Source: Desulfarculaceae bacterium
Lineage (GTDB): Bacteria; Desulfobacterota; Desulfarculia; Desulfarculales; Desulfarculaceae
DNA: 64,000 nt
Assembly (NCBI GenBank): GCA_021737645.1
Contig: JAIPDO010000015.1
Location: 1 to 64,000 of the forward strand
Reading direction: 5' to 3'
Shown: one piece after another, positions 7,604 to 53,819 of the stretch
Numbering within the stretch: the first letter of the stretch is position 1
How the letters are laid out: each line of letters opens with the position of its first letter
Notes under the pieces: generated by a model
Told to the model about the DNA's origin: nothing
Databases searched by the model: none
What the model saw: the letters and a program-made list of their open reading frames with translations, nothing else
Made by a program: the position numbers and the translations under genes

Positions 7604-7617
7604 AGCGAGGCGAGACC

Positions 7618-9147: not shown

Positions 9148-9157
9148 CAAACAGAGA

Positions 9158-9203: not shown

Positions 9204-9217
9204 GTTGGAGGGCTGTT

Positions 9218-34713: not shown

Positions 34714-35229
34714 ATGGCCAGCCAGCCACAACCCGCCATAACCTGGCGAGAAGACATGATTCCTCAAGACGTGACCGCCATAGAGCGGCTCGCATCGGCC
34801 AGTGGTTTTTTCCGCCCCGACGAGGTGCTTCTGGCCGCCGAACTGGCCACCGAGCACCTGAACAAGGGCCCGGACAGCGGCTACAATTTCATTTTCGCCC
34901 AGGAAGGGGACCAGACCCTGGGCTACGCCTGCTACGGCCACATCGCCGGAACCCTGCACTCTTGGAACCTTTTTTGGATCATCGTGCACCAAAGCACCCG
35001 CAGCCGGGGCCTGGGAAGCCGACTTTTGGCCCAGGTGGAGCAGCGGGTGGCCGCCGCCGGGGGTGAACGGCTCTACATAGAGACATCTTCCCAGCCCCTG
35101 TACCACCCCACCCGGCGCTTTTATCAAAGCCGGGGCTACACCCTGCTCACCGTGCTGGAGGATTTTTACGCTCGGGGCGACGGCAAGGTGATCTACGCCA
35201 AGGCCATGCCGGATTTGGCTCGGGGTTAA
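34714..35229 (+). CDS. GNAT-family N-acetyltransferase
   Basis: 171 residues. GNAT motif A HQSTRSRGLGSRLLAQVEQRV binds acetyl-CoA; motif B LYHPTRRFYQSRGYTLL is near the C-terminus. Substrate unknown. Its stop overlaps the convergent PEP-synthase-like gene by four bases. The start ATG has AAGCGCAACC upstream; no strong Shine-Dalgarno. Confidence 0.85.
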   Translation: MASQPQPAITWREDMIPQDVTAIERLASASGFFRPDEVLLAAELATEHLNKGPDSGYNFIFAQEGDQTLGYACYGHIAGTLHSWNLFWIIVHQSTRSRGLGSRLLAQVEQRVAAAGGERLYIETSSQPLYHPTRRFYQSRGYTLLTVLEDFYARGDGKVIYAKAMPDLARG

Positions 35230-37817
35230 GCGCCGGACGGAGGCCCCAAGGCGGCCAGGTCGGCGGCGATCTTGGCCCGGTAGTGCTCCACCCGCTGGGG
35301 ACTGGCCATGATCATGTCCAACTGGCGGGTGTGCATTATCAAGTAACCAAGGGCCTTTAGCAAAGTCAGGCACTCGGGGGCGGGCAGATCCTCGGACCGG
35401 GCCAGCAGGGCGTCGCCCTTGATGCTCACCGCCATGCCCAGACCGGCCAGGAACTCATCCAAAAAGGCCAGGCGGGCGCGCCGGCGGCCCGGATCGGCCG
35501 CCCCGCCCCTAAAACAGAAGCTCACCAGATTGTCCGACGCCCGTGGGGTGACCATGGCCTCCAAAGAGGAGAAGTGAAAGCCCACCCTGGATTGCAAGTT
35601 TAAGAATTCCTTGGTGATCAAGAAGTAGTTGCGCTCGGCCAGGCGGCTTTTGACCCCCGTGGCCAGGGCCGGGTTGGCCGTGGCCTGGAACATCACCGAG
35701 GCCATGCCCTTGGCGTCCAGGGGCGGCGGCCCTTGCCAGGGCACCTCCAGCATGCCCTCCCAAAAAGCATGGAAAGACGCACACAGGATGTCCTCCAGGC
35801 ACACGTACTTGCCGCCCAGGGGCTTACGCACTCCGTCTTCCAGGTCGATGATCCACCACTGCATGGGCGCGTGATAGTAGAGCTGGCGGGCGGCGTTCAG
35901 GGGAAAATGCTCCTGGGCCGCCAGGGAGAACATCTCCTCCACCGCCTTTTGGTGGCAAAAGCGAGTGAGGTCGTGCAGGGTTCGGCAGGCCTGGGGGGTG
36001 AAGTCCGGGTCCTCGGGGTCCAGCAGGTTCAACGGGGCGGCCTGGGCGATGACCTGAGCTAGGGCCCGGCGCACCGGAGTGTCGGGCAGGCTCTGGCCGC
36101 TTTGCGGGCGTCCGGGCAGGGGCAGACGCCCGGCGTACACCGCCCGGCCGTTCGCGTCCACCGTGACCTCTTGGCCCGGAGCCAGATCCCGGCCCCCCGG
36201 CCCCACCCCCAGCAGGGCGGGCACCCCGAACTCACGGGCCACGCTGGCCAGATGCCCCGCCGCCCCGCCTTTGATTCCCACCAGGGCCGCGGCCCGGCCC
36301 AGCAAGGGGGCCCAGCGGGGCAAAGGCTGCTCCACGGCCAGCACCTCGCCCTCCTGGAAAGACACCGCGTCGCCGCCGGTCTGCACCCAGCGCACCTTGC
36401 CCGCCGCCGCGCCGGGGCCGGCGGTTATGCCGCCCCGCAGAATCAGCTGCTCCTCGGCCCCGCTCACCAGGGCCTCCAGCTTAGTCGCCCCGCTTGAGGG
36501 CAAGGGGCGGCATTGCAGAATGTACAGCTTGCCATTCTTGTCCAAGGCCCATTCCACGTCCTGGGGCCCGTGGAAATGCTCGTGCAGCATCAGGGCCGCC
36601 TGGGCCAGCTCCAGGGCCTGGGCCCGGCTCAGGCTGGGTTCCTGCCGGAGTTCCGGCCCCACCAGGGTGGGCAGCACCCCCTCCGCCGGGTCGCAGACAT
36701 ATTGCCTCTGTTTAGCCGCCACCTGGGACTGGGCCAGGCGTAGCGGCGGGCCGGGGGTCACCCGGAACAGGTCGCAGTCCCAGGAGCCATCCACCACCGC
36801 CTTGGGTAGTCCCCAGCAGGAGCTGATGAGCACCCCTTGCCGCGCCGAGTCCAGGGGGTCGGCAGTGTAGGCCACCCCCCCGGCCTGGGCCTGGATCATG
36901 GCCAGGCAACCCACGGCCATGGCCGCGTCCTCGTCGCGCAGGCCCATGTGGCGGCGATAGCTCACCGCCGGGGGGCTGTACAGGCTGGCGATAACCCCCC
37001 GGTAGGCCTCGTCCCAGCGGGTTGGCTCCACGTTGAGCTCGCTGGTGAACTGCCCGGCAAAGGAGGTGCCCGCCGCGTCCTCGCCCTGAGCGCTGGAGCG
37101 CAGGGCCAGGCGCAGGGGCGTTGGCGCTGCTTGGGCCAGGGCGGCCAAACCCTCCTGCACCGCCTGGGCCAACTCGGTGGGGATTTCCGAGCGCATGAAC
37201 AGGCCTTGGATCTGGGAGCAGGTGGCCAAGAGGCTGTCCATGCGCTCCAGGTCGGCGATCTGCAATAGCCGGGCGATCTCTTCGGCCAAGCCGTTATGCT
37301 CCACCACCAGGGCATAGGCCCGGGTGGTGATGACCAAACCCGGCGGCACCGACAGGCCCAGCTCGGCGGCCACCCGGCCCAGCACGGCCATCTTCGGCCC
37401 GCACAGGGCCTCGCCGCCAATGGCCGCCTGCTCCAGGGGCCGCACCAGGGGGCCCTCGGTGGGCGCGGGCGCGGAGCCCAGGGCGGCCTCCACCGAGGCC
37501 TGCACCGCCTTGAAGCTTTCGCCCAGGCCGGGGTAGCGGTCCGGGGCCAGGGCCTCCAGGTTTTGGATCATGCGGAAGACGTTGACCGCCGTAGCCGTGG
37601 CCCGGCCCCGCACAAAGGCCATGGTGGGGCTATGCTCCCCGGCCTGGGCCTGCTCCAGATCGGCCAGGGCCTCCAGGGCGCGTTGGTTGGCGGAGAGAAG
37701 ATCACGGAAGCAACGGTAGCGGGCCGCGAAATCGGCCCGCAGGCGCTCCACCTCGTCGGCGCCCGGCGTTTGGGGCGCTTGGGTGAAAAGGCGGCGGAAG
37801 TGATCGACCAGGTTCAC
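35226..37817 (-). CDS. PEP-synthase-like ATP-grasp/phospho-His protein with novel C-terminal domain (A)
   Basis: 863 residues, GTG start. Residues 1-125: helical N-terminal region not found in PEP synthase. About 130-440: PPDK/PEP-synthase ATP-binding domain (R240-S-S-A-x-GEDAAGTSFAGQF, GPQDVEWALDKNGKLYILQCRPL). About 460-565: swivelling phosphohistidine domain with H522 in GGAAGHLASVAREFGVPALLG. About 575-863: an unrecognised domain in place of the PEP/pyruvate TIM barrel. So ATP could phosphorylate His522, but the acceptor must be something other than pyruvate (inference; compare rifampin phosphotransferase). A paralogue lies two genes upstream on the same strand, with a kinase and a lone receiver between them. 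Confidence 0.75.
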   Translation of the reverse strand: MNLVDHFRRLFTQAPQTPGADEVERLRADFAARYRCFRDLLSANQRALEALADLEQAQAGEHSPTMAFVRGRATATAVNVFRMIQNLEALAPDRYPGLGESFKAVQASVEAALGSAPAPTEGPLVRPLEQAAIGGEALCGPKMAVLGRVAAELGLSVPPGLVITTRAYALVVEHNGLAEEIARLLQIADLERMDSLLATCSQIQGLFMRSEIPTELAQAVQEGLAALAQAAPTPLRLALRSSAQGEDAAGTSFAGQFTSELNVEPTRWDEAYRGVIASLYSPPAVSYRRHMGLRDEDAAMAVGCLAMIQAQAGGVAYTADPLDSARQGVLISSCWGLPKAVVDGSWDCDLFRVTPGPPLRLAQSQVAAKQRQYVCDPAEGVLPTLVGPELRQEPSLSRAQALELAQAALMLHEHFHGPQDVEWALDKNGKLYILQCRPLPSSGATKLEALVSGAEEQLILRGGITAGPGAAAGKVRWVQTGGDAVSFQEGEVLAVEQPLPRWAPLLGRAAALVGIKGGAAGHLASVAREFGVPALLGVGPGGRDLAPGQEVTVDANGRAVYAGRLPLPGRPQSGQSLPDTPVRRALAQVIAQAAPLNLLDPEDPDFTPQACRTLHDLTRFCHQKAVEEMFSLAAQEHFPLNAARQLYYHAPMQWWIIDLEDGVRKPLGGKYVCLEDILCASFHAFWEGMLEVPWQGPPPLDAKGMASVMFQATANPALATGVKSRLAERNYFLITKEFLNLQSRVGFHFSSLEAMVTPRASDNLVSFCFRGGAADPGRRRARLAFLDEFLAGLGMAVSIKGDALLARSEDLPAPECLTLLKALGYLIMHTRQLDMIMASPQRVEHYRAKIAADLAALGPPSGA

Positions 37818-37835
37818 GGGATCACCGGCGCGGCC

Positions 37836-38249
37836 TTAGCTCTGGTCGGGCGGCGGGGAGCCGGTGAGTTCGCCGACCACCTTGCGCCGGTCAAAGGCCT
37901 CCATGATGCGTTCGATGAGCTCGTCGAGCTTCACCGGCTTGATGAGATAGTCAAAGGCCTCCAGGGCCAGGCCCTCCACCCCGGACTCCACCGAGGCGTG
38001 GCCGGTTAAGAGGATCACCTCCACCTCGGGGTGGCATTGTTTGATCTGGCGCAGGGCCTCGATGCCGTTCATGCCCGGCATCTTCACGTCCAGCACCACC
38101 ACATCGGCCTTTTCGCGCTCCAGGTGCTCCAGGGCGGCCTCGCCGCTGGTGACTCCGGCGGCATCCACCGAGCGCCGTTGCAGGCGCCGCACCAGGGACT
38201 CCAGAAAGTCCCTTTCGTCGTCCACCACCAATACCTTGAATGAGCTCAT
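37836..38249 (-). CDS. Stand-alone response-regulator receiver
   Basis: 137 residues from the ATG at 38249, which follows GGAGAGAG; the longer frame start at 38267 is less likely. Receiver fold only: acidic D10-D11, phospho-acceptor D54 (VVVLDVKMPGMNG), T/S in LLTGHASVE and K in DYLIKPVKLDEL. No DNA-binding or enzymatic output, so it acts by protein interaction. It lies between the kinase gene and PEP-synthase-like gene A (18-base spacing), making the latter a plausible target. Confidence 0.9.
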   Translation of the reverse strand: MSSFKVLVVDDERDFLESLVRRLQRRSVDAAGVTSGEAALEHLEREKADVVVLDVKMPGMNGIEALRQIKQCHPEVEVILLTGHASVESGVEGLALEAFDYLIKPVKLDELIERIMEAFDRRKVVGELTGSPPPDQS

Positions 38250-38270
38250 GTCTCTCTCCGCTCCCATGTT

Positions 38271-39929
38271 TCACGGCGTGTCGGGCGGCGTGTTGGGCAG
38301 GCGCACCACAAAGGTGGCCCCCAGCCCCGGATGGTTCTCCAACTCCAGAGAGCCGCCCAGGCGCTGGGTGATGGAGTGGCTGATGGAAAGCCCCAGGCCG
38401 GTCCCCTGGCCGGGATCCTTGGTGGTGAAGAAAGGATCGAAGATGCGCCCGGCCAGATCAGCCGGCACTCCGGGGCCGCTGTCGCTTACCTTCACCGTCA
38501 GCCAGGAGCCGTCGGCCCGGCTCATAACCCTCACCCGCCCCCCCTGGCCCACCGCGTCCAGGGCGTTGTCCATGAGGTTCAGGAAAACCTGCTGCAACTG
38601 GGCCCGGTCGCTTTTGATCAGCGGCAGGTCGGGGCTGAGGTCCAGCTGCACCTTGACGTTGTTGAACAGGGCTTCCTTCTCTATGAAGGAGTAGGACTCG
38701 CGCAAAACGTCGTTGATGTCGATGCCCTCCAAATGGGGCTCCATGCGCCGGGCGAACTTGAGCATGCGGTGGGTCACCCCCCGAGCCCGCTCCACCTGGT
38801 TTTGGATGCGCTCCAGGTTTTCCCCCACCACCTCGCCTTCTTCCAGCTTGGCCAGCTCGCTGGGCACCAATATGTCCTGCACCTCCCCGGCCAGCTCGCT
38901 CATGGCGGCCAGGGGGTTGTTTATCTCGTGGGCCACCCCGGCGGCCATGCGCCCCAGGGAAACCAGGCGGGCCGAGTGGGCCAGTTGGGCGTCGATGGCC
39001 GCCCGCTCGGCGTCGTTGGTCTGTAGCTGGCGGATGAACAGGCGCACCAAGATGAACACCGCCATGATGATGAACAGGCTGGCCAACCCCAGCACGGCCA
39101 ACTCCACGTTGCGGGCCAGGTTCAGCGGCCCCAGTATCTCCTTGGGGTCCTGGTCGATGACCAGCAACCACTTGCCGCCACATATCCAGGAAAAGGCGGT
39201 GAGCACCTGGCGTCCGTCGGCGGTGGTGCGCTCCACCACCGAGCTGCCCGGAGCCACCGAGTGCATATCCACCGGGGCGGGGTCCAGGACCTTGCCGCCC
39301 AGGCGCGAGGGGGTCTGCAAGCGGCCCTGGCGATCCAGGATGTAGGCGTCGCCGGATTTGCCCACCTGGGCGGTGCGCACCAGGCGGTTGAACACGTCCG
39401 AGTCGATGGTGGCCCTGAGCACCCAACTGTCGCTGCCGTTGTCGTGCTTCACCGCGATTACGAAGTGGGGCACCTGACGATAACCCAGGAACACGTCGCT
39501 GGTGTACACGCCCTTTTGCATGGCCTGCTGAAACCAGGGGGCGTCCAGGTATTTCTGCTCCTTGAGCAGATAGGGTCCCACGTAGGCCCGGTGCCGGCCG
39601 TCCTTGTCGATGATGCCCAGGTCCACGAAGCTCCAGGATCGGCGGTTCATGATGGACAACAGGTTGGCCAACTCGCTTTCGTTGCTCAACTGGGTGAGGC
39701 GCGCCCCGTGGGCCAACACCTCCAACAGGGCGGTGCGCTCGGCCAGGAACAACTCGATGGCCGAGGCCCGGTTCAGGGCCCGGATGCGCAATTCCTCTTT
39801 GACTGCCTGAGTGTTGGCGTAGTTGTAGTAGTAGTACAGGCCCAGCCCCAGGCCGTTCAAAGGCAACAGGGCCACCAGTAGGGCCACGATGGTCATGCGC
39901 CGCGAGAGGTTGGCATAGGGACGGGTCAT
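38271..39929 (-). CDS. Membrane sensor histidine kinase with periplasmic Cache domain
   Basis: 552 residues. Membrane helix at about 14-34, periplasmic dCache-type sensor (DLGIIDKDGRHRAYVGPY, APWFQQAMQKGVYTSDVFLGYR), second helix (VELAVLGLASLFIIMAVFILV), then H-box AAGVAHEINNPLAAM, N-box NLMDNALDAV, G-boxes DSGPGV and GQGTGLGLSIS. GGAGGGGGAGCC precedes the ATG. Overlaps PEP-synthase-like gene B by four bases and is followed by the lone receiver, its likely phosphotransfer partner. Confidence 0.92.
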   Translation of the reverse strand: MTRPYANLSRRMTIVALLVALLPLNGLGLGLYYYYNYANTQAVKEELRIRALNRASAIELFLAERTALLEVLAHGARLTQLSNESELANLLSIMNRRSWSFVDLGIIDKDGRHRAYVGPYLLKEQKYLDAPWFQQAMQKGVYTSDVFLGYRQVPHFVIAVKHDNGSDSWVLRATIDSDVFNRLVRTAQVGKSGDAYILDRQGRLQTPSRLGGKVLDPAPVDMHSVAPGSSVVERTTADGRQVLTAFSWICGGKWLLVIDQDPKEILGPLNLARNVELAVLGLASLFIIMAVFILVRLFIRQLQTNDAERAAIDAQLAHSARLVSLGRMAAGVAHEINNPLAAMSELAGEVQDILVPSELAKLEEGEVVGENLERIQNQVERARGVTHRMLKFARRMEPHLEGIDINDVLRESYSFIEKEALFNNVKVQLDLSPDLPLIKSDRAQLQQVFLNLMDNALDAVGQGGRVRVMSRADGSWLTVKVSDSGPGVPADLAGRIFDPFFTTKDPGQGTGLGLSISHSITQRLGGSLELENHPGLGATFVVRLPNTPPDTP

Positions 39930-42511
39930 TGCGGCTCCCCCTCCTCCTCACCATCTGCCAAGTTGTAGTTTTTGGCGGCATAGGCCTGGGCCAGCCAATC
40001 GACCATGGGCCTGCCGCTCATGAGCATGTCCATCTGCCGGGTAAATAGGATCAGCCGCCCCAACTCCTCCAGCAGCCCCAGCATCAGCTCGGCGGGATAC
40101 TTCTTGATAAAGGCGCTCACCTGATCGCCGGTGCGCTCCACGGAAAAGCCCATGTCCGTGAGCAGGCGCTGGATAAGCTCGGCCCTGAGTTGACGGCGAT
40201 CCTCGGTGGCCGCCCCGCCGTGGAAACGGAAGCTGATGTAGTTGTCGTTCTGCTGGTTGCCGCAGAAGCTGTCCAGGGCTGTAAAGTGATAGCCCACCCG
40301 ACAGTTGAAGTTGAGGTACTCCGCGCTGACGATGGCATAGGCCCGCTGACCCATGTCGCGCACCTGGCCGTCCTTGGGCGGGGTGAGCAGCGAGGCGCTG
40401 AACACCGAGGCCAAGCCCTTGAGGCTCACCGGGCGGGGCCGGTTCCAGTCCACCGCCGGGTCCATAAGGCCCTTGATGAGGGCTGCGCCGGGAATGGAGA
40501 CAATCTGCTCCGGCTTCAAGGCCGTCCCCACGCCGGGAGCCAGGCCGTCGCCCAGGTCGATGAACCACAGTTCAAAGGGCAGCACCGCCTCCAGACGCAG
40601 GGCCCCACCGCCGGGATCGCGCCCCACCTCGTCGCCCAGGCGGAACATCTCCTTGAAGGACATCTCATGCACGTAGCGGATGATGTCGTGGAAGGTGGCG
40701 CAACGGGCCGGGACAAAGCGCGGCGAATGGGGATCGGTGAGGTTGAGCTTGTTGATCAGCCCGGCGGCCTGGTGCCAATAGGGGGCCGGGGCCGGGCGGG
40801 GGCGGCACAGGGCGGTGGAGGGCTCGGGGCCGGTGAGCTCGGCCACCTGGCCGGGGTAGACGCGCTTAGCCCCGGCGTCCACGGTTATCACCTGGCCGTT
40901 GGTGATTAGCTTGGTGGCCTCGCCAATGCCCACTAGGGCGGGCACTCCCATCTCCCGGGCCAGGGAGGCCAAATGCCCGGCCACTCCGCCCACGTCGGTG
41001 ACCAGGGCCGCCGCCCGGGGCAGGGCCGCAGCCAGGGCTGGGGAGGAACTCCGGGCCACCAAGACCCCACCGTCGGGGAAGTCCTTTAGCTCCGCGTCTG
41101 GGCTGACCACAAAGGCAGGCCCGGCTCCGGCTCCGGGCCGGGCGGTGTGCCCACCGACCAGCAGGGGCTCCACCTCGGGCGCGGCGGCCTCGCCGCAGCG
41201 GGCGGCCAACACCTGCAGGGGCCGCGACTGAAGGATCACCAGGCGACCGTGGCCGGTGAGGGCCCACTCCACGTCCTGGGGACAGGCGAAGCGCTCTTCC
41301 AGCTCCAGGCCCAGGCGGGCCAACTCCAGGGCCTGGCCCTCGCTGAGCGGCGGCTCTTCGCGCCCCGCCGCGTCCAGGCTGTTGCGGCTGAGGCCCTGGG
41401 CCGCCAGCCCCAGGCTCTCGCCCTGGCCGCCGGGGGCGTAGTCCAACAGCAGGGGGGGATGCCTGCGCTCCAGGCGGTAGAGGTCCGGGTCCACCGAGCC
41501 CTCCACCAAGCCCTGGCCCAGGCCGCGCACCGCGCTGATCAGCAGCGGGCCCTTGCCTCCGCCCAGGGGATCGGTGGTGTACATCACCCCGCTGGCCTTG
41601 GGCTCCACCATGGCCTGCACCAACACCGCCATCTCGGCGTCCTGGTCCAGCAAGCCCCGGCGGCGGCGATACACCACCGCTTCGGGGGCGTACAGGGCGG
41701 CCACCACCGCCCGGTAGGCCGAGGCTGCCTGGGCGGGGGGCACCCCCAACAAGCTGCGATATAGACCGGCAAAGGAGCTTTGGGTGTCCTCGCCCACCGC
41801 GCTGGAGCGCAGGGAAATGAGCCCTCTGGCCCCCAATTGGGCCAAGCGCCGGCCCGCTTCGCTGAGCTCCTTTTCCAGCTCCGGCGGCAGGGGCGCGTCC
41901 AAAATTTTCTGTTGCAGCAGGCGGCTGAAATCCTCCACCTCGCCCAGGGAGGAGCCTTCCAGAATCATCACCGCCTGGCGGAGCTGGCCTCCCAGGCCGC
42001 TGAACTCCATGAAGCGGCGGAAGGCCTCGGTGGTGACCACGAAACCCTCGGGCACCGGCAGCCCGGCCCGGGAAAGCTCAGCCAGGTTGGAGGCCTTGCT
42101 GCCCGCCAGGTGGGCCTCACCGGGCTCCAGGTCTTCCAGGGGAAGCACTAAAACCCCGGAGCGCGAACCGCCGCCCTCTTCCAATATCTGGTCGATGTCC
42201 GCCCGGATGCGGTGGAAGGCCCCCTCCAGCAGGGGGTAGCGGCCCGCGGAGATATAGTTGAGGTGGCGGATCATCTTATAGACCTTGGCGCTGGCCGCTA
42301 TGTAGCGGCTGCGCAGGAAATCCAGGCCCACCTGTCCGCCCTCGGCCAGCTGCTGCTCGATCTCGGCAATGATGGCCAGTACCTCGTTGTTGGCCCTGAG
42401 CAAATACTTGAACTCACGGAACCTCAGCTTGAGGTCACTGTGGGCTCGGTTGCCTCCGCCCCCGTTGCCGTTAACCAGGCGGTGCAGGATTTTGCCTAGG
42501 CGTTTGACCAT
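39926..42511 (-). CDS. PEP-synthase-like ATP-grasp/phospho-His protein with novel C-terminal domain (B)
   Basis: 861 residues, paralogue of protein A with the same four-part layout: helical N-terminus (1-125), ATP-binding domain (LAGSKASNLAEL, R235-SSAVGEDTQSSFAGLY, CPQDVEWALTGHGRLVILQSRPL), phosphohistidine domain with H513 in GGVAGHLASLAREMGVPALVG, and an unrecognised 300-residue C-terminal domain instead of the PEP-binding barrel. The two C-terminal domains share landmarks (FHD.. RY.HE/ KAVEEMF; WWIIDL/LWFIDLGDG; FLNLQSRVGFHFSSL / YLNFNCRVGYHFTAL; ISFRFHGGAA/VSFCFRGGAA). Translationally coupled to the sensor kinase. Reaction unknown. Confidence 0.75.
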   Translation of the reverse strand: MVKRLGKILHRLVNGNGGGGNRAHSDLKLRFREFKYLLRANNEVLAIIAEIEQQLAEGGQVGLDFLRSRYIAASAKVYKMIRHLNYISAGRYPLLEGAFHRIRADIDQILEEGGGSRSGVLVLPLEDLEPGEAHLAGSKASNLAELSRAGLPVPEGFVVTTEAFRRFMEFSGLGGQLRQAVMILEGSSLGEVEDFSRLLQQKILDAPLPPELEKELSEAGRRLAQLGARGLISLRSSAVGEDTQSSFAGLYRSLLGVPPAQAASAYRAVVAALYAPEAVVYRRRRGLLDQDAEMAVLVQAMVEPKASGVMYTTDPLGGGKGPLLISAVRGLGQGLVEGSVDPDLYRLERRHPPLLLDYAPGGQGESLGLAAQGLSRNSLDAAGREEPPLSEGQALELARLGLELEERFACPQDVEWALTGHGRLVILQSRPLQVLAARCGEAAAPEVEPLLVGGHTARPGAGAGPAFVVSPDAELKDFPDGGVLVARSSSPALAAALPRAAALVTDVGGVAGHLASLAREMGVPALVGIGEATKLITNGQVITVDAGAKRVYPGQVAELTGPEPSTALCRPRPAPAPYWHQAAGLINKLNLTDPHSPRFVPARCATFHDIIRYVHEMSFKEMFRLGDEVGRDPGGGALRLEAVLPFELWFIDLGDGLAPGVGTALKPEQIVSIPGAALIKGLMDPAVDWNRPRPVSLKGLASVFSASLLTPPKDGQVRDMGQRAYAIVSAEYLNFNCRVGYHFTALDSFCGNQQNDNYISFRFHGGAATEDRRQLRAELIQRLLTDMGFSVERTGDQVSAFIKKYPAELMLGLLEELGRLILFTRQMDMLMSGRPMVDWLAQAYAAKNYNLADGEEEGEPQ

Positions 42512-42530
42512 TTCCCTTTGTTCCAGGCCC

Positions 42531-42821
42531 TTAGGAGTCGCGCCGGGTTGGCTTGGGGCTCTGCCCCAGGGCGCCGAAGAGGTTCACCGGACGCCAGGGC
42601 TGATTGGTAGCATCTTCCACTGAAACCTTCACCTTGGGAGCCCAGCGCCTAAAGGCCCAGCGGGTGCCCAGGATGGTCAGGATCACCGGCGGCAAAAAGG
42701 CCTGCAAAAAGCGCCAGGCCACCACTTCCATCTCGAAGTGGGCGTACCAGATGGCAAAGGTCAGTTCACTCAAAAGCAGGATGTCCATTACGGCCAAGAT
42801 TAGGCCTCGCCGAAAATCCAT
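42531..42821 (-). CDS. Small two-helix membrane protein
   Basis: 96 residues. Two hydrophobic segments (LILAVMDILLLSELTFAIWYA and FLQAFLPPVILTILGTRWAF) joined by a short acidic loop, then a cytoplasmic basic/Pro-rich tail. AAGGAG precedes the ATG. No family recognised. Nineteen bases upstream of PEP-synthase-like gene B, so probably the first gene of that operon. Confidence 0.65.
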   Translation of the reverse strand: MDFRRGLILAVMDILLLSELTFAIWYAHFEMEVVAWRFLQAFLPPVILTILGTRWAFRRWAPKVKVSVEDATNQPWRPVNLFGALGQSPKPTRRDS

Positions 42822-42923: not shown

Positions 42924-43247
42924 TCATTTTTTACGCAGGTCCTGCTTGCTTACGTTCATGACCTTGATGGCCACGTTTTGGCCTTTTTCCACGAAAAAGG
43001 CCACCCGGATGACGTTGCCCAAATCCGGGGCCAGACCCACCTTGGCTTTGGAGATGTCGAAGACGGCCTTGTCGCCCTTGAGGGGATTGAGCTTGGGCTG
43101 GCTGTTGGCCAGCACCAGGGCCTTGCCGCCGTCGGTGAGGGCCAGACAGGTGCCCTGGTAGACATGGGACTCGTCGGCCTTGTCCAGGCAGCCGGTGCCC
43201 AGCGCCAGAGCCGCAAGCAGGATGCCGAGCAGTAGTGTCTTTTTCAT
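42924..43247 (-). CDS. Small lipoprotein of unknown function
   Basis: 107 residues from the ATG at 43247 (GGGAGGCAT upstream). Lipoprotein signal MKKTLLLGILLAALALGTGC with lipobox LGTGC. The mature part is a small beta-rich domain (GTCLALTDGGKALVLANSQPKL, VIRVAFFVEKGQNVAIKVMNV). No family recognised. Eight bases after the TauE/SafE gene. Confidence 0.75.
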   Translation of the reverse strand: MKKTLLLGILLAALALGTGCLDKADESHVYQGTCLALTDGGKALVLANSQPKLNPLKGDKAVFDISKAKVGLAPDLGNVIRVAFFVEKGQNVAIKVMNVSKQDLRKK

Positions 43248-43258
43248 CACATGCCTCC

Positions 43259-44296
43259 CTAGGCCTTGGCCCCGGCCGAGGCCAACTTCTTTTCACGCAG
43301 TTCGTTGGCCGCGCCCCGGAACATGATGACCATGATGTAGATGCAGATGATGCTGATGGCTCCCAGGATGATCACCGTGGCCGCCGTGGTGATGCCGTAT
43401 TGCTTGAGGATGATGGAGACCATGCAGGCCAGCACCGCGCTGCCGAACACCACCCGGATGCCGTAGCCCTGGGCGTACTTGGTGGCCACGGTGCCGATCT
43501 GGGCGCCGATGGCCGCGCCGCACAGCATCACGAACACCGCCACCAGCTCGATGCGCCCCTTGAGGCTGTAGGTGAAAGCGCCGTACAGGCCGCTGATCAT
43601 CACCTCGAACAGGTCGGTGCCCACGGCCACGTGGGTTGGGGCGCCGATGAAGTAGATGAGCGCGGGCATGCGCAGCAGGCCGCCGCCGATGCCCAGGAAG
43701 CCGGCCAGAACGCCGGTGATGAAGCTGACCGCGATGGGCAGCCAAATCGAGCAGGTGATGTTTGCCACCCTGAAGTGCATCATGGGCGGGATGTTGATCT
43801 TGTGCAGCGCCGGGGCCCAGTTCACCCCGCCGGTGGCCCCGGTGTGGCTGGGGTCGTCGCTCTTGTTGCGGTTTTTCACCGCCTTGTAATAATCATAAAA
43901 AACCATCAAGGCGATGAGCGCCAAAAACACCACATAGACCCAGCGCACCACCGGACCGATGCGCCCGATGCGCTCCAGGGCCATGACGATCTGAGCACCC
44001 ACCTCGATGCCGGCCATGGTGCCGATGAGCATGATGAAGCCCAGGCGGTAGTCCACGTTGCCGAATTTGCTGTGGCGCATGGTGGAAATCATCGACTTGC
44101 CCGCGATGTGGGCTATGTCGGTGCCGATGGCGAAGGCCATGGGGAAGCCCAGGATGTTCAGGCCGGGGGTTACCATCCAGGCCCCGCCCATTCCGAAAAA
44201 GCCGCCGATCACCCCCACCGAGTAGCCGATCAACACCAGGCCGGGCCAGAATATCTCCACCCCCGCGATGGGCATGTGCATGTAAAGCCATTCCAT
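43259..44296 (-). CDS. TauE/SafE-family membrane anion exporter
   Basis: 345 residues with about eight membrane helices and two homologous halves, each bearing the family's glycine motif: GGFFGMGGAWMVTPGLNILGFPMAFAIGTD and GFLGIGGGLLRMPALIYFIGAPTHVAVGTD. The family moves sulfite, sulfoacetate and related anions across the inner membrane. AAGGAGCG precedes the ATG. In a strain with sulfur metabolism, sulfite or sulfur-anion export is plausible but not shown. Confidence 0.88.
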   Translation of the reverse strand: MEWLYMHMPIAGVEIFWPGLVLIGYSVGVIGGFFGMGGAWMVTPGLNILGFPMAFAIGTDIAHIAGKSMISTMRHSKFGNVDYRLGFIMLIGTMAGIEVGAQIVMALERIGRIGPVVRWVYVVFLALIALMVFYDYYKAVKNRNKSDDPSHTGATGGVNWAPALHKINIPPMMHFRVANITCSIWLPIAVSFITGVLAGFLGIGGGLLRMPALIYFIGAPTHVAVGTDLFEVMISGLYGAFTYSLKGRIELVAVFVMLCGAAIGAQIGTVATKYAQGYGIRVVFGSAVLACMVSIILKQYGITTAATVIILGAISIICIYIMVIMFRGAANELREKKLASAGAKA

Positions 44297-44323: not shown

Positions 44324-44620
44324 CTAGTGTTCCACGTGCCCGGCGCTTTTACCAAGATCCAGGCCGACGTGGCTCATGATCAGGTCCATGAGCAGTCCCA
44401 GGGACACGCCCAGGGCGGAGGTGATCACCACCGCCCAGGTGGCGAACAGCCACATATCCTGGTTGTAAAGCGTGGCCAGATAGAAGTTGAAGCTGCTCAA
44501 GGCCCTGGTGTCGGCCACCACCACCAGTTCGGTAGCCGCGCCTCCCCCGGCCCAGGCCCCGGCGGGCAACAGGCTCAATAAGGCGGCAACCATGCCCCCC
44601 AACGCGAGTTTCCTAACCAT
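44324..44620 (-). CDS. Small secreted/membrane protein beside TauE/SafE
   Basis: 98 residues: signal peptide (MVRKLALGGMVAALLSLLPAGAWA), a short extracytoplasmic stretch, then one membrane helix (WLFATWAVVITSALGVSLGLLMDLI). GAGGGAGAAGG precedes the ATG. First gene of the TauE/SafE operon, 27 bases upstream of it; perhaps an accessory subunit of the exporter. Confidence 0.65.
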   Translation of the reverse strand: MVRKLALGGMVAALLSLLPAGAWAGGGAATELVVVADTRALSSFNFYLATLYNQDMWLFATWAVVITSALGVSLGLLMDLIMSHVGLDLGKSAGHVEH

Positions 44621-45145: not shown

Positions 45146-45820
45146 CTATCTCCCCCAGGTGTCGGGGTCCACCAGGCCTGTGGCTAGGGCGTACTTGACC
45201 AGGCCGATGACGTCGCGGCGGCCCAGCTTGGACATGATCTTGGCCCGGTGGTTGTCCACCGTCTTGGGGCTGAGGAACAGCTTTTCGGCGATCTGCTTGT
45301 TGGAAAAGCCCTCCACCACCAGGGAGAGGATCTGGCGTTCGCGGTCGGTGAGGGTCTCCCCGCCGCCGGTGGACGGCTCAGTGGGAGAGGGCATCTTGAC
45401 GAACTCGTCCACAATGTGCCCGGCCACCGGCGAGTCCAGATAGCTGTCCCCGTCCAGCACCGCCTGCACCGCGTCCAAAAGCTTTTCACCCGCCGAGTCC
45501 TTGAGCACATAGCCCCGGGCCCCGGCCTTGAGGGCCTCCATGATGAAGGTCTTGCGCGAGTGCACGCTGAGGATAACCACCCGAATATCAGGGAACTCCT
45601 TGGTAAGCTCCCTGGTCATGTCGATTCCGTTCATCTCGGGCATGGTGATGTCGGTGACGACCACGTTGGGCAGGAGCTTGCTGATCAGGGCCAGGCCCTC
45701 CAAGCCGTTGGCCGCCTCGCCAACCACCTCCAGGGCGGGGTTGGACGCCAACACCTGTTTGATGCCCTCGCGCACGATGCCGTGATCGTCGCAAATCACC
45801 ACGCTATGCTTCTGGCTCAT
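45146..45820 (-). CDS. NarL/FixJ-family response regulator
   Basis: 224 residues. Receiver with D11-D12 and phospho-acceptor D57 (VVTDITMPEMNG), linker, and a LuxR-type HTH (LTDRERQILSLVVEGFSNKQIAEKLFLSPKTVDNHRAKIMSKLG). Binds DNA when phosphorylated. Overlaps its kinase gene by four bases (ATGA). Next downstream on the same strand is the TauE/SafE operon with a palindromic site. Confidence 0.93.
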   Translation of the reverse strand: MSQKHSVVICDDHGIVREGIKQVLASNPALEVVGEAANGLEGLALISKLLPNVVVTDITMPEMNGIDMTRELTKEFPDIRVVILSVHSRKTFIMEALKAGARGYVLKDSAGEKLLDAVQAVLDGDSYLDSPVAGHIVDEFVKMPSPTEPSTGGGETLTDRERQILSLVVEGFSNKQIAEKLFLSPKTVDNHRAKIMSKLGRRDVIGLVKYALATGLVDPDTWGR

Positions 45821-47862
45821 GACTGACCTCCGGGGTGCACCTCGGCCACCAACACGGTGCCCTGGGTGGAGGTCTTTATGGTAAGCCGACCGCCCACCAG
45901 GTTCAAGCGCTCATGCATGCCCAGGAGCCCCAAACGGCTTCCACCGCCCTGCTCCAATATCTGCTCCACGTCGAACCCCCGCCCGAAATCGCGCACCTCG
46001 GCCCGGATGAGCCCGTCGCGGGAGCTTAGGCTCACCTCTGCCTTGGTGCTTTGGGAATGCTTCAGCACGTTGGTGAGCGCCTCCTGCACAAAGCGGAAAA
46101 GGGTGGTCTTAACCGCCGGGCCCAGGGCCCGGTCGTCGATTTTGTCCAGATGGGTGGTCACCGCCAGCACCCCGTCTTCGGACAGGCTCTCGCACAAATC
46201 GGTCAGGGCGGCTGTGAGACCGAAATTGTCCAAGATGGCCGGGCGCAGGCGGTAGGCCAGCGAGCGGCTGCGGTCCATGACCTCCTGGGTCAGGCGGATT
46301 TGCCGGTCCAGGTCCGGCCGCACCTGCTCGTGATTGCGGGCCAGGGTTTGCAGACCGATCTTGAGCGCCGAGAGCAACTGGCCCATCTCGTCGTGCAGGT
46401 CCAGAGCCAGGCGCTTGCGCTCCTCTTCCTGGGCGTTGATGAGCTGGCCGGAGAGCTCGCGCACCCGGCGCTCGGCTAAGACCTGCTGGGTGACGTCCCG
46501 GGCCACTCCCCTGCGGCCCAGGCTGCGGCCCCGGGCGTCGCTGAGACCCCGGGAGTGGATGGAGAGCCAGCGCACCCGGCCGTCGGCCGTCTGGTGCCTG
46601 AGCGCCAGGATGCTCATGGGCTCGTCCTGTTCGGTGCGGGCCTTTTGCTGGTCGTACTTGGGCCGGTCCTGGGGCAAGATGAACTCCTGTTGGGTGCGCC
46701 CCAGCATCTCTCCCGGCTGATAGCCCAGCACCCCTTCCACCGCCCGGCTGACAAAGGTGTAGCGCCCGTCCTGGTCCAGCTCGAACACCACGTCGGGCAG
46801 GTCCTGCACCAGGCTGAGGTAGCGCTGGGTGGAAACCTCCAGGTCGGCGGTGCGCTCGGCCACCAGGGCCTCCAGGTGGCGGGCCTCGCCCTTGATGCTC
46901 ACCAGGCGGCGCTCCTGGGCCCGGTAGCGGGTGAACAGCAGGGCGCCCAAGAAGATCAGGCAGCACAAGAGCAGAGTCAGGAACAGGAAGATGCTGCGGA
47001 ACATGGCCCGGTTGGGGGCCATGGCCGTCTGGTAGTCGTGCATGACCACCACGCTCCAGCCCGAGGCGGGCACCACGGCCACCGCCGCGAAGACCTGCTC
47101 GCCGCCGCCGGGCAGGCGGGCAACCCCGGCCCAGTGGGCCTGCTTGGGGCCCAGGTTGCGGCGCACCTGGGAGGCCATGTCCTCCAGGGCTCCGGCGGGC
47201 AGCTCGGCCTTGGCCAGGCCGGCGGCCACCACCCGGCCCTCCTGGTCGAACAAAAAGTAGGTGCGCCCAGGCCGGGCGGCCATTTGGCGGAAGAAATTTT
47301 TCCAGAATGCGGGAGGCTGGGTCACTCCCAGGTAGGCGGCGGTCTTGCCGTCCTGGCTAACCACCGGCACCGACAGCACCAGGCACGGCCCCACCGGGCC
47401 GCAGCGGCCCGGCTCCAGGCCCGACACCCAGGGGGCGGGAGGCAACACCCCCACCGGAGGCAGTTTCACGTCCCCACCCACCTTGGGCACCCGAATCATG
47501 TAGAGGCCTTCGGGGTCCACCAGAAACACCGAGTTGGTCTGGGGTCCCATGGCCAATACCGGCTGTAGGAAAGCGGCCAGATCCGAGGGTTCGCCGTGGG
47601 CCAGGGCCCGGCGTAGGCGGTCGCGGGAGGCGATGACCCCCAGCAGATTGAGCAGGCCATCCTGCTGCTCGGAGATGAAGCGCGAGGCGGTCTCGGCCTG
47701 GACCAGGTTGGCCTCCAGGTTTTCGCTGAGCGCCTGCTCCTGGATGGTCCCGAACACGGCCAGGGAATAGATCGCACCCAAGAGGATCACTGCCAACAGG
47801 GCGCCGTAGCCCACCCACTGGCTGCGGCGCGGCGAGCCTGCTGAAGTTTTCTTGCCGGACAA
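45817..47862 (-). CDS. NarX/DegS-type sensor histidine kinase with periplasmic sensor and PAS domains
   Basis: 681 residues from a TTG at 47862, preferred because GGGAGGG lies seven bases upstream and the frame beyond has no family features; start uncertain. N-terminal helix (WVGYGALLAVILLGAIYSLAVFG), periplasmic Cache-like sensor, second helix (SIFLFLTLLLCCLIFLGALLF), PAS domain (DLPDVVFELDQDGRYTFVSRAV), then HisKA_3 with H in LALDLHDEMGQLL and HATPase boxes EALTNVLKHS, DFGRGFD, LGLLGMHERL. Confidence 0.88.
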   Translation of the reverse strand: MSGKKTSAGSPRRSQWVGYGALLAVILLGAIYSLAVFGTIQEQALSENLEANLVQAETASRFISEQQDGLLNLLGVIASRDRLRRALAHGEPSDLAAFLQPVLAMGPQTNSVFLVDPEGLYMIRVPKVGGDVKLPPVGVLPPAPWVSGLEPGRCGPVGPCLVLSVPVVSQDGKTAAYLGVTQPPAFWKNFFRQMAARPGRTYFLFDQEGRVVAAGLAKAELPAGALEDMASQVRRNLGPKQAHWAGVARLPGGGEQVFAAVAVVPASGWSVVVMHDYQTAMAPNRAMFRSIFLFLTLLLCCLIFLGALLFTRYRAQERRLVSIKGEARHLEALVAERTADLEVSTQRYLSLVQDLPDVVFELDQDGRYTFVSRAVEGVLGYQPGEMLGRTQQEFILPQDRPKYDQQKARTEQDEPMSILALRHQTADGRVRWLSIHSRGLSDARGRSLGRRGVARDVTQQVLAERRVRELSGQLINAQEEERKRLALDLHDEMGQLLSALKIGLQTLARNHEQVRPDLDRQIRLTQEVMDRSRSLAYRLRPAILDNFGLTAALTDLCESLSEDGVLAVTTHLDKIDDRALGPAVKTTLFRFVQEALTNVLKHSQSTKAEVSLSSRDGLIRAEVRDFGRGFDVEQILEQGGGSRLGLLGMHERLNLVGGRLTIKTSTQGTVLVAEVHPGGQS

Positions 47863-47967
47863 GATGCACCCTCCCAGCGCGGGGCAGGGGCGAGGCGCCC
47901 CGCACCGCCCCAATATATAACGAGGCGGCCCGTATCCCAAGCTTAATGCAAAGGCGCGGGAGGGTGC

Positions 47968-50900
47968 TCAGGCGCTTTGGCCCGCGCCCAGCTTTTTGCG
48001 GTACAGGGCGTAATAGGCCACCGGCACCACCAGCAGGCTGAAGGCGGTGGAGGCGGCCAGGCCGAAGATCAGGGCCCAGGCCAGGCCCGAGAAAATGGGG
48101 TCCAGGGTGATGGGCCAGGCCCCCAGGGCGGTGGTGGCGGCGGTGAGCACAATGGGCCGGAAGCGCACCGCCCCGCTGGCCAGGATGGCCTCCTGGAAGG
48201 AGAGGCCCTCGTCCAGCTGGTTGTGCACGAACTCGATCAGCACCACCGAGTTGCGGATGACGATGCCGCCCAGAGCGATCATGCCGATCATGCTGGTGGC
48301 GGTGAAAAAGATGGGGTTGGGCAGGCCGGCCACCGGGGAGGCCCCCACCAGGTTGAGCAGCCAGAAGCCGGGCATGATACCCAAAAGGGTCAGGGGGATA
48401 GCCACCATGAGCAGCGGCGGCACCAGGAAGCTGCCGGTCTGCACCACCAGCAGGATGAAGATGCCCACCAGGGCCGCGCCAAAGGCCAGGCCCAGGTCGC
48501 GGAACACCCTGAGGGTAATGTGCCACTCTCCCTCGCCGTCCCAGGATACCTCCACCCCCGGCGGCAGTTTTTGCTCGGCCAGTTTGGCCTGCATGTCCAA
48601 GATGGCCGTGGCCGGGGAGCGCCCGGCCAGCTCTGAATAGACCATCACCACCGGCCTGAGGTCCTTGTGCATCACCGGCTGCTCGCTGTCCATCCGCTGG
48701 AAGCGGCCCAATTCGCCCAGAGGCACGCTGCCTCCCTGGGCCGTGGCCAGGGGAAGCTGGCTAAGTTCGGCCAGGCTGGAGCGGGCCAGGCGGGGCAGAA
48801 TGAGCCGCACCGGCAGGGGCTGGCGCTCGTGAGCCAAGTGCACCGCCGCGGGCTGGGCCCCGCTCAGGGCCAAGCGCAGGGTCTGGATGATCCTGCCGGT
48901 GCTCACCCCGTGCAGGCCCGCCTTTTCCTTGTCCACCACGAAGTCCCAACGGGTCCGCACCGCCTCGCTGGAGTCGTCGATGTCCACCACCAGATCCTCG
49001 GCCCCCATGACCCGGCGCACTACCGCCGCCCCCTTGATAAGATCGGCGTAGGGCGTGCCGGGGCGGCCATGGACCTCGGCCACCACCGTGGCCAAGACCG
49101 GTGGGCCGGGGGGCAGCTCCACCAGCTTGAGGTTCACCCCGTGGCGGCGGGCCATTTCCGTTAGCTCCGCGCGCAGGCGCAGCATGATCTCGTGGCTCTG
49201 CTGCTCGCGGTTGTCCTTGGGGGCCAGGTTCACCCTGATGTCGGCCACGTTGCCGCCCCGGCGCAGGTAGTAGTGGCGCACCATGCCGTTGAAGTCCATG
49301 GGCGAGGCCGAACCCACCGTGGAGGTGAAGTTGATCACCTCGGGCACCCCGGCCAGATAGGCCTCAAAGGCCCGCACCGCCCGGTCGGTGGACTCCAGGG
49401 TGGTGCCCTCGGGCAGGTCCAAAATAAGCTGAAACTCGTTCTTGTTGTCAAAGGGCAGCATCTTCACCGGCACCAGACGCAGGGCCACCAGGGACACCGA
49501 GGCTATGAGCGCCGCCACGATGCCCAGACCCAGGGCCCAGCGCAGTGAGCGGCGCTCCAGAAACGGCCGCACCACCGCCCCATAGGCCCGGCGCAAGAAC
49601 GGGGAAGTGAGTTCCTGGGGCGGCGGGGGCTCCTTCCCGGCCTGGGCCTTGCCAGGTGCCAGGCGCCTGAGCAGGCGATAGCTGAGCCAGGGCACCACGG
49701 TCAGGGCCCACAGGGTGCTGAAGGTCACGGTTAGCGGCACGTTGGCGGCCATGGGGGCCATGTAGGGGCCCATCATGCCGGTGATGAAAAACATCGGCGC
49801 GAAGCTGACGATGATGGCCAGGGTGGACATGATCACCGGCGGCATCACCTCGTTGACCGCCACCAGGGTGGCGTCCAGGGCATTGCGCTTGCCCATGCGG
49901 ATGTGGCGCTGGATGTTGTCCACGTTGGTGATGGGGTCGTCCACCACCAGGCCCAGGGACAGGATCAGGGCGAACATGGTCACCCGGTTGATGGTATAGC
50001 CGAACAGGTAGTTGACGAACAGGGCCATGGCAAACGACAGGGGCACCGCGATGGCCACGATGAGCGCCTCGCGCCAGCCCAGGGTGAAGGCCAACAGGGC
50101 CACCACGGTGAGCACCGCGAAGAACAGCGAGTTCATCAGCTCGTCGCTCTTGGCCTGGGCGGTATGGCCGTAGTTGCGGGTCACGGTGAGGCCCACCCCG
50201 TCGGGCAATACCTTTTTCCCAAGCCCCTCGGCCCGGTCCAGGATTTCCTGGGCCACGGCGACCGCGTTGGTGCCACGCTTTTTGGCCAGGGCCAGGGTCA
50301 CCGCGTTCTGCTCCGGCCCGTCCTGGGGCAGGCCCTGCTGCTTGAGCCACAACCGCCCGAAGCCGATGCGGCTGTAGGTTTGGGCTTCGGCCGGACCGTC
50401 TATGATCTTGGCCACGTCGCGCAGATACACCGGACGGCCCTGGTGCACCCCCACCACCAGCTCGCCCACCTGGCGGGGGCTGGTGAGGAAAGAGTCACTG
50501 GTTAGCTGAAAGGTTTGCCCGGCCTGGTCGAAGCTCCCGGCCAGGGCCGCGGCGTCGGCCCCGGTCAGGGCCTTTTGCACCGCCAGAGCGGTAAGCCCGT
50601 GGGCGGCCAGGGACTGGGGCAAGAGCTCCACCCTAAGTTGGCGGGGCCGCCCGCCCACGATGCCGGTGCGGGAAATGTCGGGCACCTGGGAGAGGTAGAA
50701 GAGCATCTCCTCGGCCATGCGCCGCAGCTCATAGTCCGAGTAGCGGGCCGAATGCAGGGTAAGGGTGACGATGGGGACGTCGTCTATCTCCACCGGCTTG
50801 ACCACCCAGCCCTTGACCAGGGGGGGCACGGTGTCGGTGTTCATGGCGATCTTGTTGTAGAGCTTGACCAGGGAGCGCTCCCGGTCCTGGCCCACGAAAA

Positions 50901-51228
50901 AGCGCACCGTGACCACCGCCTGGCCCCGCCGGGCTTGGGAATAGACGTGCTCCACCCCGTCTATCTGCCACAGCAGGCGCTCCAGGGGGGTGGTGACCAG
51001 GCGCTCCACTTCGGCGGCGGAGGCCCCCGGCGCGCTGACCATGACATCGGCCAGGGGCACCACGATCTGGGGCTCCTCCTCGCGGGGAGTGAGCATGACC
51101 GCCGCCGCGCCCAGGGCCACGGCCAGGATCATAAGAAGCACCGACAAATGGCCGGTGACAAACGGGCGCACCAGCCGGGCCACGGGGCCCAGGCGAGACT
51201 GAGCTGGCTCCGGGGAGTTAGCGGCCAT
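47968..51228 (-). CDS. RND-family efflux pump inner-membrane transporter
   Basis: 1086 residues, full length. Proton-driven export through a tripartite envelope complex. Twelve membrane helices and two large periplasmic loops; the proton-relay pair is visible in SLGLVVDDPITNVDNIQRH, and the conserved ALGGIVIRNSVVLIEFVHNQLDEG and RFRPIVLTAATTALGAWPI motifs are in the second half. Sequence looks more like the HAE1/metal-mixed clade without the Met triad of CusA, so substrate is open. Overlaps the adaptor gene by 11 bases. Confidence 0.93.
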   Translation of the reverse strand: MAANSPEPAQSRLGPVARLVRPFVTGHLSVLLMILAVALGAAAVMLTPREEEPQIVVPLADVMVSAPGASAAEVERLVTTPLERLLWQIDGVEHVYSQARRGQAVVTVRFFVGQDRERSLVKLYNKIAMNTDTVPPLVKGWVVKPVEIDDVPIVTLTLHSARYSDYELRRMAEEMLFYLSQVPDISRTGIVGGRPRQLRVELLPQSLAAHGLTALAVQKALTGADAAALAGSFDQAGQTFQLTSDSFLTSPRQVGELVVGVHQGRPVYLRDVAKIIDGPAEAQTYSRIGFGRLWLKQQGLPQDGPEQNAVTLALAKKRGTNAVAVAQEILDRAEGLGKKVLPDGVGLTVTRNYGHTAQAKSDELMNSLFFAVLTVVALLAFTLGWREALIVAIAVPLSFAMALFVNYLFGYTINRVTMFALILSLGLVVDDPITNVDNIQRHIRMGKRNALDATLVAVNEVMPPVIMSTLAIIVSFAPMFFITGMMGPYMAPMAANVPLTVTFSTLWALTVVPWLSYRLLRRLAPGKAQAGKEPPPPQELTSPFLRRAYGAVVRPFLERRSLRWALGLGIVAALIASVSLVALRLVPVKMLPFDNKNEFQLILDLPEGTTLESTDRAVRAFEAYLAGVPEVINFTSTVGSASPMDFNGMVRHYYLRRGGNVADIRVNLAPKDNREQQSHEIMLRLRAELTEMARRHGVNLKLVELPPGPPVLATVVAEVHGRPGTPYADLIKGAAVVRRVMGAEDLVVDIDDSSEAVRTRWDFVVDKEKAGLHGVSTGRIIQTLRLALSGAQPAAVHLAHERQPLPVRLILPRLARSSLAELSQLPLATAQGGSVPLGELGRFQRMDSEQPVMHKDLRPVVMVYSELAGRSPATAILDMQAKLAEQKLPPGVEVSWDGEGEWHITLRVFRDLGLAFGAALVGIFILLVVQTGSFLVPPLLMVAIPLTLLGIMPGFWLLNLVGASPVAGLPNPIFFTATSMIGMIALGGIVIRNSVVLIEFVHNQLDEGLSFQEAILASGAVRFRPIVLTAATTALGAWPITLDPIFSGLAWALIFGLAASTAFSLLVVPVAYYALYRKKLGAGQSA

Positions 51229-53765: not shown

Positions 53766-53775
53766 TGACTGCCTA

Positions 53776-53819
53776 ACAATTGTTGAAATATTGAGGCACA
53801 ATAGTAATCTCTATTGTGC
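53776..53819 (-). promoter_or_regulatory. Two palindromic operators upstream of the efflux operon
   Basis: AACAATTGTT at 53776-53785 and GCACAATAG-TAATCT-CTATTGTGC at 53796-53819 (perfect 9-bp arms), in an AT-rich patch immediately before the tolC-like start. Typical of a TetR- or MarR-type repressor site, but no such regulator gene adjoins. The whole gap 53766-54116 is divergent regulatory DNA; a TTGTCA at 53925-53930 may belong to the plus-strand promoter. Confidence 0.55.

Follow-up and report, generated by a model that had tools for sequence, protein, structure and literature searches.

Two-component genes and putative anion transporters beside a family of PEP synthase-like proteins with a distinct C-terminal domain in Desulfobacterota

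Gene content of the locus

The window analyzed here, a 64,000-nucleotide stretch from a Desulfarculaceae bacterium (GCA_021737645.1, contig JAIPDO010000015.1, positions 1 to 64,000), holds a minus-strand run of genes in which two large proteins resembling phosphoenolpyruvate (PEP) synthase, referred to here as PEPS-like proteins, enclose a sensor histidine kinase and a stand-alone receiver. Both are members of a distinct, widespread family of the ATP-grasp/phospho-histidine "dikinase" superfamily, with an undescribed C-terminal domain in the place of the PEP/pyruvate barrel. The genes of the run and of its upstream neighborhood are listed below with the evidence for each (ORF, open reading frame; aa, amino acids).

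35226..37817, minus strand: PEPS-like protein, lower copy, clade II, 863 aa (ORF call, Pfam, alignment and structure model)
37836..38267, minus strand: stand-alone receiver, 143 aa, phosphorylation residues intact (ORF call, Pfam, alignment)
38271..39929, minus strand: sensor kinase, dCache_1 - HisKA - HATPase_c, 552 aa (ORF call, Pfam, pattern match)
39926..42511, minus strand: PEPS-like protein, upper copy, clade I, 861 aa, H513 (ORF call, Pfam, alignment)
42531..42821, minus strand: 96-aa protein with two hydrophobic stretches (ORF call; present too in L118-L120)
42924..43250, minus strand: 108-aa lipoprotein-like protein (ORF call; lipobox judged by eye)
43259..44296, minus strand: type-1 TauE/TSUP transporter (PF01925), probably the output of the system (Pfam)
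44324..44620, minus strand: 98 aa, two hydrophobic stretches; the operon probably starts with this gene (ORF call)
45146..45820, minus strand: NarL/LuxR-type DNA-binding response regulator; possible transcriptional control (Pfam; upstream in L118 and L008 too)
45817..47940, minus strand: kinase, PAS - HisKA_3 - HATPase_c, with a sub-threshold dCache match; partner of the 45146-45820 regulator (Pfam)

A first-pass annotation had described five minus-strand genes between 35226 and 42821, and both their order and their overlaps agree with the ORF coordinates: from upstream to downstream, the genes are spaced by a 19-base gap, a 4-base overlap, a 3-base gap and an 18-base gap. It had set the extent of the run too short, however, as the TauE gene and two small genes continue it upstream on the same strand for ~1.8 kb, with gaps of 102, 8 and 27 bases. 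Judged by gene spacing, the run would form one operon; a promoter scan gave no excess (2 found versus 1.7 expected). The NarL/LuxR-type regulator and its kinase, which overlap by 4 bases, are separated from the 44324-44620 gene by a 525-base gap and are a possible transcriptional regulator of the run. The earlier statement that no DNA-binding output is coded is therefore correct for the operon, but not for the genes around it.

The kinase and the small receiver carry the residues typical of a two-component pair (H- and G-boxes; Asp, Thr and Lys). Pattern matching found the H-, N- and G-box motifs in the kinase, the receiver keeps D16, D17, D60, T88 and K110, and a Pfam scan of the receiver protein returned Response_reg alone, with no output domain. 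In three loci of the same genus (L118-L120) the order is 2TMb - TauE - lipoprotein - 2TM - PEPS-like - kinase - receiver - PEPS-like (2TM, two transmembrane stretches), and L119 has a second receiver. A LuxR-type regulator also lies upstream in L118 and in the near relative L008; in L119 and L120 its place is taken by a match to a CBS-domain protein.

A dikinase-like family with a distinct C-terminal domain

For comparison, 159 non-identical, near full-length members of the family were assembled (2 from the window, 78 from L007-L087, 64 from L118-L157 and 15 from L188-L200), with partial ORFs and identical copies removed beforehand. The first 80 loci were kept of 94, located with patterns from the lower copy, and 53 further regions were chosen by hand, many for holding pairs. 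Alignments A1 and A2 omit L076 and some rows that were near-identical or contained X.

In both large window proteins, which are 36% identical, Pfam found PPDK_N and PEP-utilizers and nothing else. As had been claimed, both proteins retain the ATP-binding and phosphohistidine domains, with the phospho-histidine at H513 in the upper copy and H522 in the lower copy. The lower copy consists of N-terminal helices (~1-120), PPDK_N (138-446), the phospho-His domain (487-556) and the C-terminal domain (~566-863). In its numbering, K142, R240, D420, E422, Q435, R437 and H522 are invariant in 64 aligned members; these include the residues that we take to be the catalytic Lys, Arg, Glu, Gln and Arg of PPDK_N. 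The full catalytic set K142, R240, E422, Q435, R437 and H522 is present in 149 of the 159 members, and both window copies look intact.

An AlphaFold2 model of the full lower copy (predicted local distance difference test score, pLDDT, 84.3) matched PEP synthase, rifampicin phosphotransferase (Rph) and pyruvate phosphate dikinase (PPDK). PEP synthase (PpsA, 2ols) and PPDK have the same order of ATP-grasp then phospho-His, and the window proteins share with them PPDK_N with its catalytic residues and the mobile domain with its phospho-His. They differ from both enzymes in their extra N-terminal helices, in their C-terminal domain and in having no C-terminal PEP/pyruvate TIM barrel (PEP-utilizers_C, PF02896). 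The best NCBIfam matches are PEP synthase models, as would be expected if the genes were ordinary PEP synthase or PPDK paralogues for gluconeogenesis that lie beside signaling genes by chance. We regard this as highly improbable. The matches span only about residues 121-582 and score 288.7 and 276.9 bits against a cut-off of 598; Pfam found PEP-utilizers_C in neither window protein and in none of 67 C-terminal domains; and on contig C100 the host genome encodes a separate dikinase, which has PPDK_N as well as PEP-utilizers_C. The linkage to signaling genes, moreover, is not a matter of chance when set against 18 control loci, as described below. A plain PEP synthase or dikinase identity was consequently rejected.

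Rph (5hv1) and PigC/RedH also share ATP-grasp and phospho-His matches with the PEPS-like proteins. Their third domain is likewise not a barrel, but in Rph it sits between the ATP-grasp and His domains, whereas in PEPS-like proteins it is C-terminal. The NCBIfam scores for Rph, PigC and RedH fall far below their cut-offs (for Rph, 196.6 and 229.6 versus 999 bits, the best stretch being the ATP-grasp part only), and these identities were set aside. Two further ideas were considered. Against an HPt-like N-terminal bundle, the N-terminal region has no conserved His. PSRP-type regulation is linked to a Thr two residues before the phospho-His, and a claim that this Thr is always missing, with such regulation thereby excluded, was dropped because it is there in 43 of the 159 members.

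No Pfam family matches the last ~290 residues of either large protein. When the C-terminal domains of 67 members were scanned against Pfam at E<=1, matches were scattered, with none in more than two members and a best E of 0.014, and a profile search of PDB sequences with the domain gave one stray match at E 0.2. The modeled domain of the lower copy (AlphaFold2, pLDDT 82.5) had no Foldseek match in the PDB at E<=0.001; the best was 7e-3, with a template modeling (TM) score of 0.15 over the query. For a predicted structure, such an absence is no proof of a new fold. The first-pass annotation had named a standard PEP/pyruvate barrel as the finding that would speak against its proposal, and none was found by Pfam, the PDB profile search or Foldseek.

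Within this domain, among the 64 aligned members, D616, R619, H622, G746, H748, N763, G771, G772, R778, R782, Q832 and D834 are invariant; D616, H622, H748, G771, G772, R782 and D834 are invariant in all 159, and all ten residues checked are present in 148 of the 159. The residues invariant throughout look like an active site, and this would suit a metabolic enzyme, in which the PEPS-like protein phosphorylates or activates a compound imported by the adjoining transporter and the two-component genes serve only for local regulation or sensing. Elsewhere in the superfamily, a small substrate is handled by a third domain; Rph phosphorylates rifampicin, and phenylphosphate synthase phosphorylates phenol. 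We nevertheless consider such an enzyme unlikely, on grounds given below.

Gene neighborhoods, clades and paired copies

At E<=1e-5, the C-terminal domain was found in 107 of 297 Desulfobacterota genomes, with about seven candidates per genome at most scored. Members also occur in metagenome-assembled genomes (MAGs) labeled Thermoanaerobaculales, Acidobacteria, Myxococcota and Candidatus Magnetobacteriaceae (L016, L019, L059, L063 and L084). In L016 and L019, from MAGs labeled Thermoanaerobaculales/Acidobacteria, TauE, kinases, receivers and a PEPS-like gene co-occur, pointing to transfer of the unit or else to mis-binning.

Neighbors were counted for the 106 of 159 members that have 4 kb on both sides, pair members sharing neighbors in these counts. 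Controls were 20 true PEP synthase or dikinase loci from the same phylum, 18 of them with 4-kb flanks; the transporter references were drawn from family neighborhoods and applied to the controls too. A lone receiver lies within 4 kb of 89 of the 106 members (0/18 controls), a histidine kinase within 4 kb of 80 (1/18), both together within 4 kb of 77, and a TauE, SLC13 or SulP transporter within 4 kb of 52 (0/18). Chance linkage of PEPS-like genes to signaling genes is ruled out by this comparison, and the linkage proposed from the window extends beyond it: orthologues are not scattered without kinase and receiver neighbors. Three transporter families are represented (PF01925, PF00939/PF03600 and PF00916), which fits a shared regulator better than a single metabolic step. 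Together with the fact that the most constant neighbors are receivers without DNA-binding domains, this argues against the metabolic enzyme introduced above.

The same receivers bear on the direction of phosphate flow. Phospho-His superfamily proteins can hand phosphate to proteins, as enzyme I of the PEP-dependent phosphotransferase system (PTS) does, and the PEPS-like protein could conceivably do likewise, spending ATP to place a phosphate on the lone receiver or on a partner, the receiver being the acceptor and downstream effector. The upper copy has a weak match to the PtsI model (E 2.8e-07, 29.6 versus 824 bits, far below cut-off), and D, D, D, T/S and K are kept in 50 of 50 aligned receivers. 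The kinase near 80 of the 106 members would be redundant, however, the receiver has no output domain, and the phospho-His domain is fused to the C-terminal domain rather than to a receiver. We judge this reversed flow improbable.

A midpoint-rooted FastTree phylogeny places 57 members in clade I and 102 in clade II (support 1.0 and 0.996), with the upper window copy in the former and the lower in the latter. The nearest transporter within 2.5 kb of clade I members is a type-1 TauE in 16, type-2 in 0, SLC13 in 6 and SulP in 0, with none in 35; for clade II the corresponding counts are 1, 28, 12 and 3, with none in 58. Fisher's test for clade versus TauE type at this distance gives 2.6e-11, a statistic that ignores kinship, and the match consequently shows co-inheritance rather than independent events. 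Near clade II genes, the type-2 TauE is regularly followed by a membrane protein that belongs to no Pfam family (235 aa in L076); it recurs in 39 of 81 loci, as in the L007 10500-11209 region, and may be a transporter subunit.

The first-pass annotation had also proposed a pair of phosphotransferases, which is correct for the window but not as a rule. Of the 97 members flanked by 4.5 kb on each side, 67 lack a same-strand partner within that distance, even in a sample where many regions were chosen for pairs. Same-strand PEPS-like neighbors less than 4.5 kb apart make up 26 rows, and in 16 of these a kinase then a receiver lie between them. This quartet order recurs in other lineages. The window genus and its near relative L008 combine clades I and II, one f41 genus (g70) combines II and II, and L133-L135 (the second L134 copy not being on the tree) and L065 combine I and I; L057 joins a clade II copy to one not on the tree. 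This spread over several lineages and clade combinations suggests more than one origin of the quartet. L127-L131 also have clade II and I copies paired, either in tandem or with a receiver between them.

In g70 (L121-L126 and L250-L270), the first quartet copy is a maintained pseudo-enzyme that has lost its active site. Its 21 orthologues in 41 genomes were sought with the dead copy at E<=1e-200, a setting at which a less similar live orthologue could be missed. E422 and H522 are lost in 21 of 21 (H522 to Arg in 20 and to Glu, perhaps by misalignment, in one), and K142 in all 19 that align there. All eleven C-terminal residues checked are nevertheless kept in 19 of 21, with one copy differing at two sites and one truncated, and a kinase follows the first copy in 20 of 21, the remaining locus ending too early. 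Mean identity among six dead copies is 85% in the N-terminal region and 84% in the C-terminal domain versus 67% in the ATP-grasp, whereas conservation among the live second copies is highest in the ATP-grasp (80% versus 71% N-terminal and 78% C-terminal). Elsewhere, the L136 protein (7302-9707), which adjoins a receiver, TauE and the TauE companion, is missing nearly all of its phospho-His domain and has lost its ATP-site residues but retains the N- and C-terminal domains, and L195_10683 has lost its ATP-site residues while keeping the His, with one of ten C-terminal residues changed. Dead copies that keep the C-terminal domain suggest that it is useful without phosphotransfer in its own chain, and a genus that keeps these residues in copies without ATP and His sites is again awkward for a metabolic enzyme. 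In L121 and L123, the quartet comes after flagellar-type genes (by eye).

The Desulfovibrio nitrate cluster and a proposed mode of action

The set of genes in the window has a counterpart that is known genetically, without a mechanism, and to call the system undescribed was therefore too strong. The nitrate cluster DVU0251-DVU0245 / Dde_0597-0605, as given in Korte 2014 (PMC4001038), likewise contains TauE, a kinase, a lone receiver and a protein with PPDK_N and the mobile domain. The window holds all four in one same-strand run, although in a different order and with two PEPS-like copies rather than one. The nitrate cluster also has a PtxB-like protein and a dual-specificity phosphatase, neither of which phmmer with L192 references found in the 64-kb window at E<=1e-5; the two are thus related systems rather than the same one. 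Across 22 homologous loci, 20 of them picked by match to the L192 protein, the full order TauE - hypothetical protein - PtxB - kinase - receiver - PEPS-like - phosphatase occurs in 16, PtxB through phosphatase in 20, and PEPS-like then phosphatase in 22. The PEPS-like proteins of L192 and L199 carry the key residues of the family and lie on another clade I branch than the upper window copy. DVU0246 is described as PPDK plus mobile domain (PMC4001038), and the gene order of the homologous loci points to its membership in the PEPS-like family.

According to that paper, single transposon-insertion mutants of D. vulgaris in DVU0251 (TauE), DVU0250, DVU0247 (lone receiver) and DVU0246 grow alike with and without 100 mM nitrate, whereas a DVU0245 (phosphatase) mutant is inhibited by 100 mM nitrate, and the authors propose a leaky thiosulfate transporter. 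Because the PEPS-like gene is downstream of TauE in the homologous loci, its loss should not act through polarity on TauE. Loss of import or of modification could yield the same phenotype if the protein were a metabolic enzyme; nitrate, which these mutants resist, is itself not expected to be phosphorylated. Taken together, the pattern of kinase, receiver, phosphotransferase and transporter and the shared phenotype favor a control device over a metabolic enzyme.

In such a device, the Cache kinase would sense a periplasmic ligand and phosphorylate the lone receiver, which would then bind one or both PEPS-like proteins, perhaps at the N-terminal helices, and set their activity. ATP would charge H522 or H513, and the phosphate would move on to an acceptor that is part of the C-terminal domain or is bound by it; the outcome would alter how active or how abundant the TauE anion transporter of the same gene run is. 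TauE is probably the target; the signaling steps, the direction of control, the phosphate acceptor and the choice of target are inferred. To the whole of this, receiver-controlled, ATP-driven phosphotransferases acting on a neighboring anion transporter, we assign an even chance of being correct. If it holds, the phosphatase of the Desulfovibrio form could oppose the PEPS-like protein.

Several observations weigh against this control device. Within 4 kb, 54 of the 106 members have no TauE, SLC13 or SulP transporter, none is present in the fetched regions of six g70 quartets, and a receiver is directly adjacent on the same strand in only 48 of 145 members, mostly upstream. The match between clade and transporter is looser at 6 kb (clade I, 24 type-1 and 4 type-2; clade II, 4 type-1 and 36 type-2), and of the four clade II members that break the pattern, three are lower copies, those of L118, L008 and the window itself, whose run is shared with a type-1 TauE. 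DVU0246, at 2235 bp (744 codons), is shorter than all 82 members measured (824-914 aa). In PMC4001038, the kinase gene DVU0248 is a pseudogene in DvH and the receiver mutant is still nitrate-resistant, which implies that the kinase is dispensable there; a receiver that still matters without its kinase would also be in keeping with the PEPS-like protein phosphorylating the receiver. That text further gives a high nitrate fitness for the phosphatase homologue Dde_0605 in G20 (2.08) and a low one for DVU0245 (-6.04), and DVU0250 is low in the pool (-5.82) yet resistant as a single mutant, and the nitrate data are accordingly not clean. Finally, the literature covered yielded no direct link between PEPS-like proteins and transporters.

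A more specific form of the control device would be a new kind of two-component output, in which the receiver drives a PEPS-like hetero-oligomer and the phospho-His of one chain charges the C-terminal domain of its partner, a domain that in turn gates the anion transporter directly. The dead first copy of g70 would then be a pseudo-enzyme form of the same machine. We hold this possible but doubtful. If true, it would be an ATP-driven counterpart of PTS control over the uptake of electron acceptors by sulfate reducers.

Beyond Korte 2014, we found no paper in the open-licence literature on the PEPS-like family or its transporter link. PMC3431258 mentions DVU0251 a single time. The putative sulfate transporters of sulfate reducers covered by Marietou 2018 (PMC5840216), namely TSUP (TauE), DASS and SulP, belong to the same families that adjoin PEPS-like genes, but that paper treats them without PEPS-like genes: its main text, as accessible, lacks "phosphoenolpyruvate", "histidine kinase" and "response regulator", and "PEP" occurs once, in the reference list. 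The accessible portions of Trotter 2023 (PMC10102598) held no DVU024x match, and those of PMC6052904 no Dde_059x or Dde_060x match.

Little is known of how anion uptake, with which sulfate reduction begins, is controlled. Found in about one-third of the sampled Desulfobacterota genomes and linked with receivers and three types of putative sulfate transporter, the phosphotransferase family would provide a molecular handle on that control. It also offers a testable account of why sulfate reducers resist nitrate where oil-field souring is to be controlled. The dikinase superfamily also gains a third domain without a recognized family or fold.

The host itself is probably a sulfate or sulfite reducer, since its genome has dsrA above cut-off, with a second, sub-threshold match beside it. 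It encodes three PEPS-like proteins. The third, on contig C98 (L007), adjoins a lone receiver, and somewhat beyond it lie a TauE-like transporter, two more receivers, a kinase and a sigma-54 regulator. This cluster, whose TauE is of type 2, is ~15 kb from dsrA (C98:64396-65610) on the same contig. Window positions 47968-53801 encode an AcrB-type resistance-nodulation-division (RND) efflux pump together with proteins of the membrane-fusion and outer-membrane types (Pfam ACR_tran, HlyD and OEP).

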